A DNA stretch of 64,000 nucleotides. It comes from Halobacillus halophilus DSM 2266 (GTDB taxonomy: Bacteria > Bacillota > Bacilli > Bacillales > Halobacillaceae). Position numbers and translations under genes: made by a program. Shown here piece after piece: positions 3,800-51,199 of this stretch (position 1 is its first letter; each line of letters begins with the position of its first letter). The notes under the pieces are model-generated. The model saw only the letters and a program-made list of their open reading frames with translations. It was not told where the DNA came from and made no database searches. Location: contig NC_017668.1 of assembly GCF_000284515.1 (NCBI RefSeq), positions 2,418,001 to 2,482,000 on the forward strand, read 5' to 3'.

Positions 3800-4783
3800 T
3801 TAAAATTCAGCGAGATCCCGCATTGCTTTCTCGACTTTATCTGGATTCATCATGAAAAACTTTTCCATTGTCGGTGCATAAGGCATGGACGGAATGTCAG
3901 GACCCGCAAGACGCTGCACAGGTGCATCGAGATCAAATAAGCAATTCTCACTGATGATCGCTGATACTTCGGATATAATTCCGCCTTCTTTGTTATCCTC
4001 TGTAACTAAAAGCACCTTTCCTGTTTTGGAAGCAGCTTCCATAATACCTTGCTGATCCAATGGATAGACGGTTCTTAAATCAAGGATATGAGCGTCAATT
4101 CCTTCTTCCGCTAACTTTTCAGCGGCCTGCAGCGCAAAGTGCACACACAGACCGTACGTAATAACGGTAATATCTGAACCTTCTCTTTTCACATCCGCTT
4201 TTCCAATAGGTAGTGTATAATCCTCTTCAGGAACTTCTCCTTTAATCAAACGGTACGCTCGCTTGTGTTCAAAGAATAGAACAGGGTCATTATCACGGAT
4301 GGAAGCTTTCAACAGCCCTTTCACATCGTATGGAGTTGAAGGCATTACAATCTTTAACCCTGGCTGGTTTGCGAAAACAGCTTCCACAGATTGCGAATGA
4401 TAGAGAGCCCCGTGCACACCACCACCGTAAGGAGCACGAATCGTCATTGGCACACTCCAATCGTTATTAGAACGATACCGCGTTTTAGCAGCTTCGGAAA
4501 TAATCTGGTTCACGGCAGGCATGATAAAGTCAGCGAACTGCATTTCTGCTACCGGTCTCATTCCATACATAGCAGCCCCAATTCCAACACCCGCGATTGC
4601 AGATTCAGCGAGGGGTGTATCAAGAACACGATCTTCTCCAAACTCATCATAGAGTCCGTCTGTAGCACGGAAGACCCCGCCTCGCTTACCGACGTCCTCT
4701 CCAAGCACGAAAACTTTATCGTCCCGCTTCATTTCTTCTCTTAAAGCCTGCGTTACTGCCTGAATATAAGATATAACTGCCAT
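3800..4783 (-). CDS. bkdAB: Branched-chain 2-oxoacid dehydrogenase E1 beta
   Basis: The 327-residue transketolase-type subunit pairs with BkdAA in an alpha2beta2 E1. That enzyme uses thiamine diphosphate to decarboxylate the 2-oxoacids of Val, Leu and Ile. FVLGEDVGKRGGVFRAT near the N-terminus and the pyrimidine-binding fold with PAVNQIISEAAKTRYRS are typical of E1 beta, and the C-terminal transketolase_C domain follows (about 200-320). It is 15 bases downstream of bkdAA, consistent with stoichiometric co-expression. Confidence 0.95.
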   Translation of the reverse strand: MAVISYIQAVTQALREEMKRDDKVFVLGEDVGKRGGVFRATDGLYDEFGEDRVLDTPLAESAIAGVGIGAAMYGMRPVAEMQFADFIMPAVNQIISEAAKTRYRSNNDWSVPMTIRAPYGGGVHGALYHSQSVEAVFANQPGLKIVMPSTPYDVKGLLKASIRDNDPVLFFEHKRAYRLIKGEVPEEDYTLPIGKADVKREGSDITVITYGLCVHFALQAAEKLAEEGIDAHILDLRTVYPLDQQGIMEAASKTGKVLLVTEDNKEGGIISEVSAIISENCLFDLDAPVQRLAGPDIPSMPYAPTMEKFFMMNPDKVEKAMRDLAEF

Positions 4784-4798
4784 TTTTATTCCCCCTCC

Positions 4799-5800
4799 TT
4801 ACTCTTCATTCTCTTCATAGACGTACTTCATTGCCGATTCCGCTTCAGCATATGAGGCATTTTCAGCATAATCAGTTGCATCATTGACAATTTGATTAAT
4901 CTCTTCATTCATTTCGGTTTCTATCTCTTCCGTAAGTATGTTTTGTTCGCGTAAGTAATTCGCAAAAGTAACTATAGAATCTTTCTTTTTAGCTTCATCT
5001 ACTTCTTCCCGCTCCCTGTATGTGCGATCATCGTCATCACTTGAGTGAGGGGTCAGACGATAGGATACTGTTTCAATCAGGGTAGGGCCTTCGCCGTTTC
5101 TGCCACGGACTGCCGCAGCTTTAACTGCCTCATAAACGGCTAGAGGGTCATTCCCATCCACAGTAAAACCAGGCATACCATATCCGATGGCACGGTCAGA
5201 AACCTTTTCACAGGCAAGCTGTTTCGAGACAGGTACAGAGATGGCATATTTATTATTTTCTACCATAAAGATAACTGGGAGTTTATGAACGCCTGCAAAG
5301 TTTGCTCCTTCATGGAAATCACCCTGATTGGAGGAACCTTCTCCGAAAGTCACAAGTGATACAAAATCTTTCTTTTCCATCTTTCCAGCCAGGGCTATAC
5401 CTACTGCATGGGGTACTTGAGTCGTTACTGGAGATGAACCTGTTACAATTCTGTTTTTCTTCTGTCCGAAGTGACCTGGCATTTGACGTCCACCTGAATT
5501 CGGGTCCTCCGCTTTAGCAAAACCAGAAAGCATCAAATCCTGAGGTGTCATTCCAAAGGAAAGGACAACTCCCATGTCCCGGTAGTAAGGCAAAGCATAG
5601 TCTTTGGTTCGGTCAAGAGCATAGGAAGCACCTACTTGGGCAGCCTCCTGACCTTGACATGAAATAACAAATGGAATTTTACCTGCACGGTTCAATAGCC
5701 ACATTCTTTCGTCAATCTTTCTTGCCATAAGCATGGTTCGAAACAAATCTAAAACTTCTTCGTCACTAAGTCCTAATGATTTATGGCGGTTTTCAGCCAT
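4799..5800 (-). CDS. bkdAA: Branched-chain 2-oxoacid dehydrogenase E1 alpha
   Basis: The 333-residue thiamine diphosphate-binding subunit of E1. The cofactor motif runs from GEGSSNQGDFHEGANFA to the closing ENN near residues 154-184. The phosphorylation-loop equivalent RLTPHSSDDD (about 250-260) is conserved, as in bacterial BkdAA. It sits between lpdV and bkdAB, with 17-base gaps, in the middle of the bkd operon. The length and order match B. subtilis. Confidence 0.95.
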   Translation of the reverse strand: MAENRHKSLGLSDEEVLDLFRTMLMARKIDERMWLLNRAGKIPFVISCQGQEAAQVGASYALDRTKDYALPYYRDMGVVLSFGMTPQDLMLSGFAKAEDPNSGGRQMPGHFGQKKNRIVTGSSPVTTQVPHAVGIALAGKMEKKDFVSLVTFGEGSSNQGDFHEGANFAGVHKLPVIFMVENNKYAISVPVSKQLACEKVSDRAIGYGMPGFTVDGNDPLAVYEAVKAAAVRGRNGEGPTLIETVSYRLTPHSSDDDDRTYREREEVDEAKKKDSIVTFANYLREQNILTEEIETEMNEEINQIVNDATDYAENASYAEAESAMKYVYEENEE

Positions 5801-5817
5801 ATTTCCCCCTCCTTTTT

Positions 5818-25659: not shown

Positions 25660-25699
25660 TCTCAACCTCTATATCCTTTAATTGACTTCATATGTAGCG

Positions 25700-26311
25700 A
25701 AAGGAATGGTCACGTAACAGGTAAAAATTGCGGCTTAGGTCTAGTAGGTTTTCCCAATCAAGCACCGAGTGTCACCACTCTGGCGGTTCCCCTTTAAGCT
25801 CAACTCAGCTCCGTTTCCGAAAGCTGGACTAGATTGCCACTTAGTCCGCACTATAATTCCTGTTACATGTACTAAATAGAACAGCCTAGGGGATTTCCCC
25901 GACAGCCTTTAACCGATCCTTAGCCTCTTTTGCAGTTCTGATTTCATAAAGCTTCCACATCATGTCTTCGCTGGCCATCCGAAGAACCATGATATTCATT
26001 AACTATAATCCCCTCAGAACCACTCAAGGCAGGCTACGCTGCGCATATAGATGTTACTCCATATACTGCAGGTTCATACCCCATTCCATAAGGATCCCTG
26101 GCTCAGGGATCCTTACAGAGATGGGCCTCCGCGGAAGCAGGGTCAACGCCCACATGCCTTTGTGGATCGCCCTGCAACCTTAACTCCCAGCATCGACCCA
26201 AGGCTGGGCGCCTCAAGCCAACACAAGGAACTTCATCGATATGCCCTTTGGCGGATTTTTAGGCCCGCCTTCAGGAACGGAGGGCCGACTAGAATACTGC
26301 ACCATTCCTCA
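25700..26311 (-). ncRNA. ole: OLE RNA (ornate, large, extremophilic RNA)
   Basis: The 700 bases between ispA and oapA hold no convincing gene but dense structure. A perfect 8-bp closing helix pairs 26301-26308 with 25703-25710, enclosing about 606 nt, the family's usual size (about 610). Further stems: 25859-25869 with 25711-25721 (11 bp, one wobble); 25846-25850 with 25729-25733; a perfect 11-bp hairpin at 26090-26114; and GGCCC/GGGCC near the 5' end. Position between ispA and oapA is as in Bacillus halodurans. OLE forms a membrane ribonucleoprotein with OapA and is transcribed with its neighbours. Confidence 0.92.
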
Positions 26312-26359
26312 CTAACCATAATATATCATATTCTAAATCCTTGCTCAATCTAAACGTTT

Positions 26360-42983: not shown

Positions 42984-44111
42984 CTACAAACCACATTTCA
43001 ATTGTGCATTACAATTCGTACAAGTATTACAGCCGCCAATATCTTCAACAGTTCCTTTTCGGCAGACTGGACAAGTATCGCCTACTTCAGATCCTATGGT
43101 CACATTCGTCTTATCTAACTCATGTACGGTATCCATTAGAACAACACGAGGTTTTCTTTCTTCTTCAAATTCAAACTCGGTCTGTTCCCCGTCGAATTCA
43201 TTTTCCTCTGCTTTTAAGGTTAGGACTTGACTATCACGGCTTCCATCAACATATACGGTACCGCCTTTCGCTCCTCCACGGTACAATCGTTGATAAACCT
43301 TTTCCACCTGATCAACCGAATAGCCTCTCGGAGCATTAACGGTCTTGGAAATAGAACTGTCAACCCAGCGCTGGATAATACATTGGGTGTCTGCATGCGC
43401 TTCAGGAGACATTGTCATAGCCGTTACAAACCATTCAGGCAAATGATCAGGGTCCTGGTCAGGGTGCTGCTCTAGATACTCATTCACAATATCTGCTTTT
43501 ACTTCAATAAATTTACCCAAACGTCCACTGCGATAATAAGAGAAAGAGAAGTAAGGTTCAAGTCCCGTACTAACGCCCACCATTGTACCCGTACTTCCGG
43601 TAGGTGCTACTGTCAATAAGTGAGAATTTCGAATTCCGTACTTCATTACCCCTTCGCGAATATCTTCAGGCATATCTTTCATGTAACCAGTGTTAATAAA
43701 AGCTTCTCGCAATTTATTGGTTTCCTCTTCACTCGTTCCTTGAAGGAAAGGAAAGCTGCCTTTTTCTTTGGCCAATTCAATTGAGGTGCGATAGGCAGTG
43801 GTCGCAATTACTCCAAAAATTTCATCTACTAATTTGTTTCCTTCTTCGGAGCCATATTCGGTTTCACAATAAATTAGTAAATCGTGGAGCCCCATAACAC
43901 CAAGTCCTACCCGACGCTCTCCAAGGGCTTGTACTTTATTTTCTTCCAAGAAATAAGGAGTGGCATCAATAACATTGTCCTGCATCCGAACGCCGGTTTG
44001 AACGGTTTGTTTAAGTTGCTCATAGTTTACTTTCTTCTCTGTTTTATCAGCAACAGAGGCCAAATTAACCGCTGCCAGGTTACATACAGAGAATGGAGCT
44101 AGTGGCTGTTC
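42984..44111 (-). CDS. nrdJ: B12-dependent ribonucleotide reductase NrdJ, 3' exon
   Basis: This part begins at Glu of the active-site motif (…NPCG|EQPLAPFSVCNLAAVN) and encodes 375 residues. It includes the barrel core (LLTVAPTGSTGTMVGVSTGL) and the C-terminal Cys-rich tail CPVCRKGTVEDIGGCNTCTN. The tail cysteines re-reduce the enzyme through thioredoxin. Read alone it could start at an in-frame ATG made by intron sequence (44114), but that codon lies across the splice site. Class II reductases need adenosylcobalamin but no oxygen. Confidence 0.9.
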   Translation of the reverse strand, partial: EQPLAPFSVCNLAAVNLASVADKTEKKVNYEQLKQTVQTGVRMQDNVIDATPYFLEENKVQALGERRVGLGVMGLHDLLIYCETEYGSEEGNKLVDEIFGVIATTAYRTSIELAKEKGSFPFLQGTSEEETNKLREAFINTGYMKDMPEDIREGVMKYGIRNSHLLTVAPTGSTGTMVGVSTGLEPYFSFSYYRSGRLGKFIEVKADIVNEYLEQHPDQDPDHLPEWFVTAMTMSPEAHADTQCIIQRWVDSSISKTVNAPRGYSVDQVEKVYQRLYRGGAKGGTVYVDGSRDSQVLTLKAEENEFDGEQTEFEFEEERKPRVVLMDTVHELDKTNVTIGSEVGDTCPVCRKGTVEDIGGCNTCTNCNAQLKCGL

Positions 44112-44360
44112 CAAGGTTGTTATCCTTCCGGCTTTTTATCCAGAAGTTCTTACAGTTTTTCTTTCCTGCAAGTTCAGCATACATTTTCATCACACAACTC
44201 GTGTAATGTTGCGGTCTCGTGGGTGGATTATATTCTCACAATGAGGTTCACCACCTATGCGTTGCCCCTGACTGGAGTATTTAATTCCAGCCTTCGGTTC
44301 GGATCAGCATTTCAGCCTTCCCGCTTTATCCCGCAATGTTTTACATGAGGCAAACTATTC
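44112..44360 (-). other. Candidate group I self-splicing intron in nrdJ (249 nt)
   Basis: It separates codons for NPCG and E of the reductase active site. Removing exactly 249 nt joins the frames into 857 residues. The 5' exon ends in U and the intron ends in G, as group I introns require. P1: exon CAUGUGGU (44368-44361) pairs with GCCUCAUG (44351-44344), with U.G at the splice site and one mismatch. P10: GUUU (44355-44352) pairs with exon GAAC (44111-44108). UUGCGGGAUAAAG resembles the group I P element and pairs with CCGCAA (44214-44209). An 8-bp CAUUACAC hairpin follows. I could not trace P3/P7. No open frame inside. Confidence 0.72.
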
Positions 44361-45806
44361 ACCACATGGGTTTGTAGCTACAACTTTTTGTCCGTAAGCA
44401 GAAGCATTTGTTTTTTCATTGGCGTTATCAATAAAGAAAATTCCAGGTTCTGCTGAATAAGTTGCACATATATTAATTAAATTCCAGAGCTCTGAAGCTT
44501 TAACGGTGCGGTAATTCCTTATACCGAAACCTCTTTCTTCCCACTCTCTTACATCTCCGCTGCTTTGCCATTCTTCATTATAGATTTTCATTTCCTCTTT
44601 GGTGTAGTTTTCTACATCAGGAAAACGCAAATGGTATTCAGTATCCTCTTCTACAGCATCCATAAATTCCTTAGTTATACATACTGAAATATTGGCTCCA
44701 GTGAGGAATTCTGGGTTGTGTACTGTATACGTACCGCCAATATAAAGTTTCTCCTCGGCTTCCTGAATAGCCTTTTCCGTAAATCCACCTGAACCAGGCA
44801 TATGCTTGTAATTTACAACACTTTGAAAAAGGTCTTTCTCTGTTTCCGTTAAAGGTGTGAACTTGAGTTTGTCTTTAGCCAGTTGTTTAATTTGTTCATC
44901 TTCCGTATTTTGAATAAGGAAACGTAATATTCTAGGATTTTGCATTTTAGAAATAATGAACTCAATGATGTCCGGATGCCAGTCGGCAAGCATAATCATT
45001 TGTGCTCCCCGCCTTGAGCCACCCTGCTCCACCAGGTGAGTCAGCTTAGCAATATCATCAAGCCATGATACAGAACCAGAGGATTTCCCATTAACTCCAC
45101 GAGCTAGTGTATTTCTTGGCCTTAGAGTAGAACCATTTGTCCCTACTCCGCCACCGCGTGACATAATTTCCATCACTTGTTTACGATGATCGGATATACC
45201 TTCTCTGGAATCTTGAATATAAGGCATAACGTAGCAATTGAAATAGGTTACATCAGTATTAGAACCTGCTCCATATAATACACGGCCTGCTGGGATGAAG
45301 TTCAAATTTGAGAGTTCGTTATAAAAGTTATCAAAGCTTTTTTGCTTTTGAACGGGATCCGTTTCTACCTCCGACAATCCTGTAGCATTGCGAAGAGCAA
45401 TTTGCTCATAATACACTTCCAGCGGCTTATCAATGGTATCCAGGTTTCGGGTTATTAAGCCTGTCTCTCTTTCATTTTCATGATCAAGAACGCTTACGAA
45501 TTCATCCTCTACTTTCACTACTGCCTCGTGTTTTTCCCAATCAATTGACTGAATGAAACCAAAGCCTCGAGCAGGAAATTTCGGATCATCTTTCACCGTA
45601 AGCACCACAAAATCGTTCTCTGCTAACGTAAGTTTTTCGGTATCTTTAAATGCATACCTATCAAGCATAACCAGTCTTGAAACGCCCTTGTGAGTAATCT
45701 TCATATCTGCTGTTATTTCATGTACTTGAGAAAACTGTCGAATATCTGCATTTAACCGATCTACATTAACCTTGGCATAGGTATCATTGGAGGTGGTGGT
45801 TTGCAT
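44361..45806 (-). CDS. nrdJ: B12-dependent ribonucleotide reductase NrdJ, 5' exon
   Basis: The 482 residues run from the start to the active-site cysteine in NPCG. Motifs include FNCYVMPYIQDS and GGGVGTNGSTLRPR (barrel entry) and SVSWLDDIAKLTHLVEQGGS. The exon ends in frame with the second part after removal of the 249-nt intron. The frame itself stops at a TAG two codons into the intron. The gene occupies the position of lipM in B. subtilis, between mntR and yqhL, so it is an insertion relative to that genome. Upstream NrdR boxes indicate dNTP-responsive control. Confidence 0.92.
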
Positions 45807-49669: not shown

Positions 49670-50770
49670 TTATCTTTTGTAAAATGGTGTAGGAACCACT
49701 TTTGCCTGAAGACGTTTTTTTCTTACCTGAACGGTTACTTCTGTGCCCATCTCCGTGTAATTACAATCTAGTAGTGCGAGCCCTACATTTTTACCAAGCG
49801 TGGGAGACTGCGTTCCGGTCGTAACAAATCCAATTGGCTTTTCTCCATCAAAAACTTCATAGTGGGTACGAGGAATTCCTTTATCGATCATCTCTATACC
49901 AACGAGCTTGCGGGAAGGACCTTCTTCTTTTTGCTTCTTCAGAACCTGTTTACCAATAAACTCATCTTCCTTCTTTGTTTTGACAGCAAAACCCAGTCCA
50001 GCTTCAATTGGGCTGATCTCAGCACTAAGCTCCTGACCGTAAAGGGCTAAGTTAGCTTCAAATCTGAGTGTATCTCTTGCTCCGAGTCCTACAGGGCGAA
50101 TTCCATGCTTATCACCTGCTTCAAGCAGAACCTGCCATAGATCTGGTCCGGAAGCAGCAGGTAGATAGATCTCAAAACCATCTTCTCCCGTATAACCTGT
50201 TCGGGAGACAATAGCACCATCTTTCACATTATCGATAGAAACATCTGCTATAAAACGGAAAAACTTTATTTCTGAAACATCGGTTTTTGTTATGGATTGT
50301 AAGATTTCTACAGCTTTTGGACCTTGGAGTGCTAATTGAACGTATTCATCAGATAGATCTTTGATGGAAACACCATTTTCCTGGTGTTTTTCGAGCCACT
50401 CCACATCTTTCTCGCGGTTAGCAGCATTAATAACTAGCAGGTATTTATCTGTTTCTAATTGGTAAACAATAAGATCGTCTACAGTACCGCCATTTTCATA
50501 GCACATTATTGTGTACTGAGCCTTCCCGGGTTCAAGTTTAGAAACATCATTTGTGAGCATTTTTTGTAAAAAAGAGAGACTTCCATCCCCTTCTACCAGC
50601 ACTTCACCCATATGGGAAACGTCGAATAACCCTGCTTTGGTTCTTGTTGCCTCATGTTCCCCTTTTATACTTGAAAACTGTACAGGCAGATCCCATCCCC
50701 CAAAATCAACTGTTTTTGCTCCCAGTTTCTTATACTCGGCATACAAAGGTGTTCGTTTTAACTCAGCCAT
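49670..50770 (-). CDS. gcvT: Aminomethyltransferase (glycine cleavage T protein)
   Basis: Transfers the aminomethyl group from GcvH to tetrahydrofolate, releasing ammonia and giving 5,10-methylene-THF. The 366 residues contain [13 protein letters not shown] near 50 and [15 protein letters not shown] near 195, then the C-terminal GCV_T_C domain. First gene of gcvT-gcvPA-gcvPB, directly behind the glycine riboswitch. Confidence 0.96.
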
Positions 50771-50808: not shown

Positions 50809-50841
50809 AGAGACTCCACCGTTTTTCGATTAGGAGTCTCT
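50809..50841 (-). terminator. Riboswitch-controlled intrinsic terminator of the gcv leader
   Basis: AGAGACTCC pairs with GGAGTCTCT around a 15-base loop, followed by TTTTTTAT on the minus strand. Its 5' arm overlaps the last P1 strand of the second glycine aptamer, so ligand binding can prevent it. Confidence 0.88.
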
Positions 50842-51018
50842 GTCCATTCACCAGAAAGTTTGATAATTCTTCTTCTATTTAAAGAAGAACCATTTGCTTC
50901 TTGGGTGGTTTACTGTTAGTAAACGCTCTCCAGAGCTGCGTCCTACAGAGGTCTGTTTGCCTGAGAGATTCACAGCATGCTTGCTCCTTCGGCGCTACGT
51001 AAGTAGACTCTCCCCCTG
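50838..51018 (-). promoter_or_regulatory. Tandem glycine riboswitch
   Basis: The first aptamer shows GGGGGAGAG, CGCCGAAGGAGCAA and AATCTCTCAGGCAAA. A linker then leads to a second with TGGAGAG, CCACCCAAGAAGCAAA and ACTTTCTGGT ending GGACAGAG. This is the two-aptamer arrangement upstream of gcv operons in Bacillales. Glycine binding should disrupt the terminator and switch on gcvT-gcvPA-gcvPB. The second aptamer deviates more from consensus. Confidence 0.93.
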
Positions 51019-51199
51019 CAGTCATTCGCTTCATATTCGTATTTTCTTAGATTCTATTGGACATACTATTTAAAAACGTAAGGCTTCACTTATTCATTCG
51101 ACATCATTATATCACAGCGTCATCACAATTTGACATTGAATTTGTAGAATCATTCTTAATTTTTAATAATCTTTTTAGAATAGATGGAGGCTCACAACT

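Follow-up and report, generated by a model that had tools for sequence, protein, structure and literature searches.

The 249 nt that interrupt the nrdJ gene (B12-dependent ribonucleotide reductase, RNR) of Halobacillus halophilus DSM 2266 are almost certainly a self-splicing group I intron, of the IA kind and lacking an ORF, gained most likely by lateral transfer, and splicing would rejoin the two exons. The window examined is a stretch of 64,000 nt, and all positions are those of the window (Table 1). An initial annotation, made from the letters alone, had read the insert as a group I intron in nrdJ, and this reading is supported by the analysis that follows.

The split nrdJ gene

The gene lies on the minus strand, and an insert of 249 nt (44360..44112) breaks it after NPCG and before EQPL. 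The NCBIfam profile NF005991 (B12-dependent RNR) passes seamlessly over the break, with profile positions 4-480 in the first nrdJ part and 481-858 in the second, and the lengths of the parts (482+375) confirm the 857 residues first proposed for a join at NPCG/E. The coordinates first given for the insert were correct; that both gene and insert lie on the minus strand had been left unsaid. The insert begins GAATAG and its second codon is an in-frame TAG (44357-44355). Because GAA is found at both insert ends, the boundary may slide by up to 3 nt; the placement chosen was that with U ending the 5' exon and G ending the intron. No ORF of at least 100 aa was found within the 249 nt. Compared with dinucleotide shuffles, the folding of the insert gave z -3.13 (0/200 shuffles as good). 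A second copy in the same genome was not found: the BLAST matches were all short and weak, none better than E 0.139, and a covariance-model search returned one match, the insert itself. Two other RNA elements lie on the minus strand of the window: a complete OLE RNA at 25690-26321 (513 bits, Rfam), and two tandem glycine riboswitch aptamers at 50838-51025, upstream of the ORF 50770..49670.

Table 1. Parts of the split nrdJ gene and of its intron (window positions).
Feature	Position	Strand	Remarks
nrdJ 5' exon	44361..45806	-	482 aa, C-terminal NPCG; NF005991 match
nrdJ 3' exon	42984..44111	-	375 aa, N-terminal EQPL; NF005991 match
Group I intron, 249 nt, last base 44112 = terminal G	44112..44360	-	fold, homologues, covariance model
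P1 5' side, in exon, CAUGUGGU	44361..44368	-	proline wobble base covaries with guide
P1 3' side = internal guide sequence GCCUCAUG	44344..44351	-	covariation with exon
In-frame stop TAG in P1 loop	44355..44357	-	stop within first 6 codons in 66/67 introns
P10 strand GUUU	44352..44355	-	can pair with 3' exon GAAC at 44111-44108
P3 5' strand UUGCGG	44331..44336	-	fold and covariation
P3 3' strand CCGCAA	44209..44214	-	fold and covariation
P4-P5 (P4 44323-44320/44303-44300; P5 44317-44315/44308-44306)	44300..44323	-	fold and covariation
P6 hairpin (44292-44287/44275-44270)	44270..44292	-	fold and covariation
P7 5' strand GCAUA, pseudoknotted with P3	44256..44260	-	invariant in 12 closest homologues; both sides change in few distant ones
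P7 3' strand UAUGC	44177..44181	-	as P7 5' strand
P7.1 and inner stem (44255-44251/44226-44222; 44245-44243/44237-44235)	44222..44255	-	fold and covariation
P8 hairpin	44188..44208	-	in two dissected relatives P8 loop = endonuclease ORF site
P9.1 hairpin	44149..44172	-	fold and homologue alignment
P9.2 hairpin	44125..44146	-	fold and homologue alignment

Fold of the insert

In our model the fold of the insert is that of a complete group I intron, with P1 and its U.G pair, P3 to P8, P9.1, P9.2, P10 and a terminal G. P1 consists of exon sequence CAUGUGGU paired with GCCUCAUG, with the U.G at the cut and one U.U mismatch; a U.G pair at the splice site had been noted at the outset, and it is kept in the homologues. 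P10, suggested initially as a possible pairing with the 3' exon, is present as GAAC/GUUU, and the stretch UUGCGGGAUAAAG, likened there to the conserved P element with a CCGCAA partner, proved to be P3 plus J3/4 and is present in homologues. The elements so named exist and are kept in homologues, most with compensatory change. The window copy keeps its core helices intact. An extra stem lies between the P7 5' and P3 3' strands and the P9 domain is extended, both of them features of subgroup IA. Domain 7 is made of one bipartite, interrupted P7.1 hairpin, accompanied by P9.1 and P9.2; the accessible part of PMC4227781 gives two hairpins in domain 7, with P9.0, P9.1 and P9.2, for subgroup IA2.

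Covariation among homologues

When 101 genomes (its own and 100 relatives) were searched by blastn with the insert, 12 genomes matched at E 2e-22 or better, and the next one followed at E 1.9e-4 with a 30-base match. The insert sits between NPCG and E in 12/12 of these homologue genomes. All 12 inserts were aligned with 10 nt of exon per side, the long P8 ORF of two being excluded, and the structure counted on this alignment was written by hand from known group I anatomy while viewing the homologues. Slid controls are biased in favour of a structure written in this way; it is better judged by the shuffles and by the pairs that change on both sides. The 65 written pairs were paired in 97.5% of 770 cells, compared with 85.6% for shuffles and 34-40% for slid versions; both-sided changes were seen in 32/65 pairs (shuffle mean 16.1; slid versions 5-11). 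RNAalifold, unaided, recovered P1, P3, P5, P6, P7.1, P8, P9.1 and P9.2; it paired the P7 5' strand elsewhere, the P3/P7 pseudoknot being outside its reach. In the exon's proline codon the wobble base covaried with the guide base that faces it, the 12 homologues having 6 A-U and 6 G-C pairs.

P7 was invariant among the 12 closest homologues, and the core covariance model (P3 to P8) was therefore built with the P7 pairs omitted. A wider alignment comprised 99 matches from 85 loci: L164 and L167, and otherwise viral contigs, phages and bacterial sites other than nrdJ. P7 read GCAUA/UAUGC in 71 of its rows, GCGUA/UACGC in 3 and GACUA/UAGUC in 2 identical rows, the last being the textbook form of P7; a full P7 was absent in the other 23/99, which we read as mostly a 3' end running into an ORF or the locus end. 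Over 90 distinct rows, a count that keeps every distinct row including those whose 3' end seems aligned into an ORF, P7 was paired in 94.1% of cells, with both-sided change at 2/5 pairs. P3, P4/P5, P6, P7.1 and P8 covary in both the 12-row and the 90-row alignments; support for P7 is thinner, because most rows share one sequence.

Occurrence at the NPCG/E site

Within the genus Halobacillus, NrdJ was found in 22/22 genomes, and the frame was continuous across the site in 19 (G021 being matched from residue 78 only) and split in 3. Splits at NPCG/E were found in 3 of 22 further genomes of the family, and in 6 of the 49 with a NrdJ match among 57 genomes of the order, giving 12/93 for the three sets together. 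A motif scan of bacterial genome contigs gave 78 loci, of which 77 had a model match and 68 had nrdJ beside the motif; the one locus lacking a model match (L158) is probably a chance hit. The same motif occurred at 69 loci in viral contigs, all 69 with a model match, and nrdJ was found beside the motif in 0/69 of them (tblastn E 1e-8 within 3 kb). The scan needs some 20 conserved bases, and its counts are consequently lower bounds biased to close copies. Introns at the same site, some with the gene for a presumed spreading endonuclease, are present in dozens of related bacteria.

Other inserts were seen in nrdJ along the way. Group I introns occur at up to three sites per gene (near residue 265-275, at 482 and at 654) in L178 (Bacillus sp. 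EB01), which has three, and in L180 (Mesobacillus boroniphilus), L129, L143, L149 and others. L180 has group II intron matches in an nrdJ gap, and in L028 (G074) a group II match lies immediately upstream of the NPCG/E site. At residue 654 of nrdJ in G082 (C1:429171-429442), an insert about 270 nt long leaves an open frame (680 aa, no stop), and since the frame stays open, an intron and a very small intein are indistinguishable by frame in this case.

Intron ends, P1-loop stops and endonuclease sequences

Both ends could be placed for 67 introns, 60 from the motif scan and 7 from the genome search, with one genome represented twice (L016, L140). All 67 have U before the intron and G at its end, as the initial annotation had observed for the window copy, and the guide GCCUCAYG is kept in all of them. 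The exon wobble base matches the guide base in 67/67 (59 G-C, 8 A-U). These two bases each change 4 times on a NrdJ tree of 66 rows, for which the duplicate L016 was omitted and the L180 3' exon was shortened, and in which 13/63 inner branches are well supported; a sign test of exon and guide cannot reach significance because only 2 independent pairs fall on supported branches. P10 has 4 contiguous pairs in 56/67 introns, 3 in 7 and 2 in 4.

An in-frame stop comes at the eighth codon in L151 and within the first six codons in every other intron of the set. The stop codon of the P1 loop is TAG in 54, TAA in 7 and TGA in 6, with 10 stop-codon changes on the NrdJ tree; that the letters change and the stop stays suggests selection for halting the ribosome in the P1 loop. 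Translation is reported, in the titles of published papers, to disturb or to aid the splicing of phage introns.

By size, 36 of the 67 introns are short and have no room for an endonuclease gene, 7 are intermediate and 24 are long. Intact PD-(D/E)XK-like ORFs were found in 17/24 long introns; compared with curated families these ORFs passed no family cut-off, and a PDB sequence search with the endonuclease profile gave nothing below E 0.35. The endonuclease ORF lies in the P8 loop in the two relatives that were dissected. It had been proposed that the intron is minimal or has lost an endonuclease gene, which fits these same-site relatives, some of which carry one within P8. On the NrdJ tree, which is weakly supported, endonuclease sequence is gained or lost 19 times.

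Origin of the intron

The core of the window intron shares 92% identity with the intron cores of Oceanobacillus caeni and O. damuensis, although the exon stretches of these two reach only 78% and 80%; it is 76% identical to the intron of L017, which has the closest intron-bearing NrdJ outside the genus (85%). This disagreement between intron and host-gene kinship points to lateral transfer. Some vertical signal is indicated as well, since intron and exon identity are correlated over 64 introns (Mantel r 0.45, 0/2000 permutations as high); the identities, those of the window intron included, cover the guide-to-P3 stretch only, and L164 and L167 of the 66 were dropped because their core motif was unmatched. 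The O. damuensis intron holds an intact endonuclease ORF. Judged from the sequences, the simplest history would be a lateral gain in one Halobacillus clade followed by loss of the endonuclease gene; a donor intron that was itself ORF-less is possible.

Proposed splicing and rival explanations

In the nrdJ transcript the guide would pair with the last eight 5' exon bases to form P1, and a guanosine held at P7 would attack after the U of the U.G pair. The freed 5' exon would then attack behind the terminal G while P10 keeps the 3' exon in place, so that NPCG is rejoined to E and the active-site motif is restored. The intron itself would most likely have arrived laterally, by homing with a P8-loop endonuclease gene that the window copy no longer has.

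We considered it very improbable that nrdJ is instead expressed as two polypeptides, a first ending NPCGE and a second starting at the insert-final UUG, with the insert as a spacer. The window insert does end in ..GGAAGGATAACAACCTTG, a possible ribosome site before UUG, and split RNR genes are known, one paper reporting, by its title, that a genes-in-pieces RNR keeps its function. The supposed start codon is CUG, however, in 25/67 introns and not NUG in 3, 22/67 have a ribosome-site-like word with AUG, GUG or UUG, and both the covarying fold and the match of exon to guide are left unexplained. Still less credible is a decayed intron within an nrdJ pseudogene that is tolerated since the class I enzyme is enough. 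The genome does have an intact pair of class I RNR genes, identified by sequence, and NrdJ may for this reason not be essential; but purifying selection on both exons is strong (dN/dS 0.02-0.03), which argues that nrdJ is not dead, and the core helices have not decayed. Compared with two intron-bearing congeners, dN/dS was 0.023 and 0.027 for the 3' exon and 0.02 for the 5' exon, and the 3' exon, downstream of the in-frame stop, differed by 43 synonymous and 4 nonsynonymous changes from one congener and by 74 and 9 from the other. The 3' exon therefore appears to be held as protein-coding sequence, as splicing predicts. These values come from the two congeners only; for L017 and L018 no dS could be computed in the 3' exon, and a frame shift distorts the L017 value for the 5' exon.

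An insert of another kind (transposon remnant, IStron, group II intron or intein) has a negligible chance of being correct. Some relatives do have group II introns in nrdJ; however, Rfam gave no group II match in the window, the insert has the ends and the fold of a group I intron, and it is without an ORF of at least 100 aa. An intein is ruled out by the in-frame stop at the second codon of the insert. With splicing of a group I intron as the preferred reading, the nrdJ gene, apparently broken at its active site, is most likely functional.

Meaning and literature

An intron family within a core metabolic gene escapes the Rfam model, and such genes can therefore be mis-called as pseudogenes. 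The series found at one site (unoccupied, with intact endonuclease ORF, with broken ORF, with no ORF) makes a natural test set for the cycle of gain, decay and loss of homing elements in bacterial chromosomes. We put forward tentatively, and with considerable doubt, a wider proposal: that the NPCG/E introns of Bacillaceae nrdJ form a long-lived mobile lineage unseen by standard RNA annotation; that its spread is driven by a PD-(D/E)XK homing endonuclease not yet described, the 3' end of whose gene also serves as ribozyme core; and that the P1-loop stop (TAG/TGA/TAA) ejects ribosomes before they reach the ribozyme, so that splicing competes with translation and gates the amount of NrdJ.

Our literature search, with most subscription papers beyond its scope, found no paper on a group I intron in Halobacillus. 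RNR genes are known to host introns: PMC2795772 describes RNRdb as having more than 100 curated group I introns in RNR entries, along with about 80 inteins, and introns of recA and nrdE in Bacillus are mentioned in a review (PMC3984707). The accessible parts of PMC3653736 and PMC2795772 name no bacterial nrdJ intron, and we do not claim nrdJ introns as unreported.

RNA family searches and comparison with known introns

The initial annotation had proposed Infernal with the group I model as a check, and this gave no hit: Rfam gave no group I match at the insert, either at the gathering threshold over the whole window or up to E 10 over the 701 bases around it. RF00028 at gathering likewise reported no intron at the NPCG/E site in 26 other nrdJ loci (11 + 15), the 15 having been drawn from the 78 bacterial loci because their nrdJ has additional gaps; Rfam matched nothing in L120 and L147. 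In the same nrdJ loci Rfam reported 15 group I introns at other places, within nrdJ gaps. A match to RF00028 is a criterion of detection and not a structural definition, and the miss of the insert was not counted as refutation because the covarying homologues escape RF00028 too. Nor did Rfam at E<=5 match an intron in five loci whose homologous introns lie in recA and phages. One intron was found both ways, that of L237, by the nrdJ-intron model (46 bits, E 1.4e-8) and by RF00028 (63.8 bits, gathering 50); L247 has an identical copy, unlisted by Rfam. The link to introns known to splice would thus run, on sequence, through one Rfam-recognised intron and through annotation. No model match at E<=10 was found in Twort 1-50,000, and the whole Twort, SPBc2, T4 and SPO1 records gave no candidate at first look and hence no model scoring.

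The RF00028 introns found in nrdJ near residue 265-275 and at residue 654 share the gene with the insert and come from related Bacillaceae; they differ from it in their insertion sites and in being reported by Rfam. The intron of SPbeta bnrdE is reportedly ORF-less, and other RNR introns are said to be known. The SPbeta intron resembles the insert in being small, ORF-less and in an RNR gene, whereas the RNR class differs. A group I intron of recA is likewise related, with the G074 (L030) copy scoring 131 bits between ORFs read as recA, and here it is the host gene that differs. L139 and L185 resemble this copy, and L185, L194 and L196 each have two or three model matches in a row; the ORFs flanking those of L185 read as recA, and recA may accordingly hold several introns of the nrdJ-intron family.

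In phage AR9, the nrdJ-intron model found two introns in gyrA, a gene annotated as a three-piece join; splicing is not mentioned in the accessible part of the AR9 transcription paper (PMC5312081). L137 (titled Lutibacter sp. B2) has two model matches at 4379-5817 with ORFs read as gyrA, as in AR9, and an ORF between the two matches that looks, by eye, like a LAGLIDADG-type endonuclease. The AR9 gyrA introns (group IA) differ from the insert in host gene and site, with 72.8% identity over half of the query, and are like it in having the same core helices, with model scores of 111 and 105 bits.
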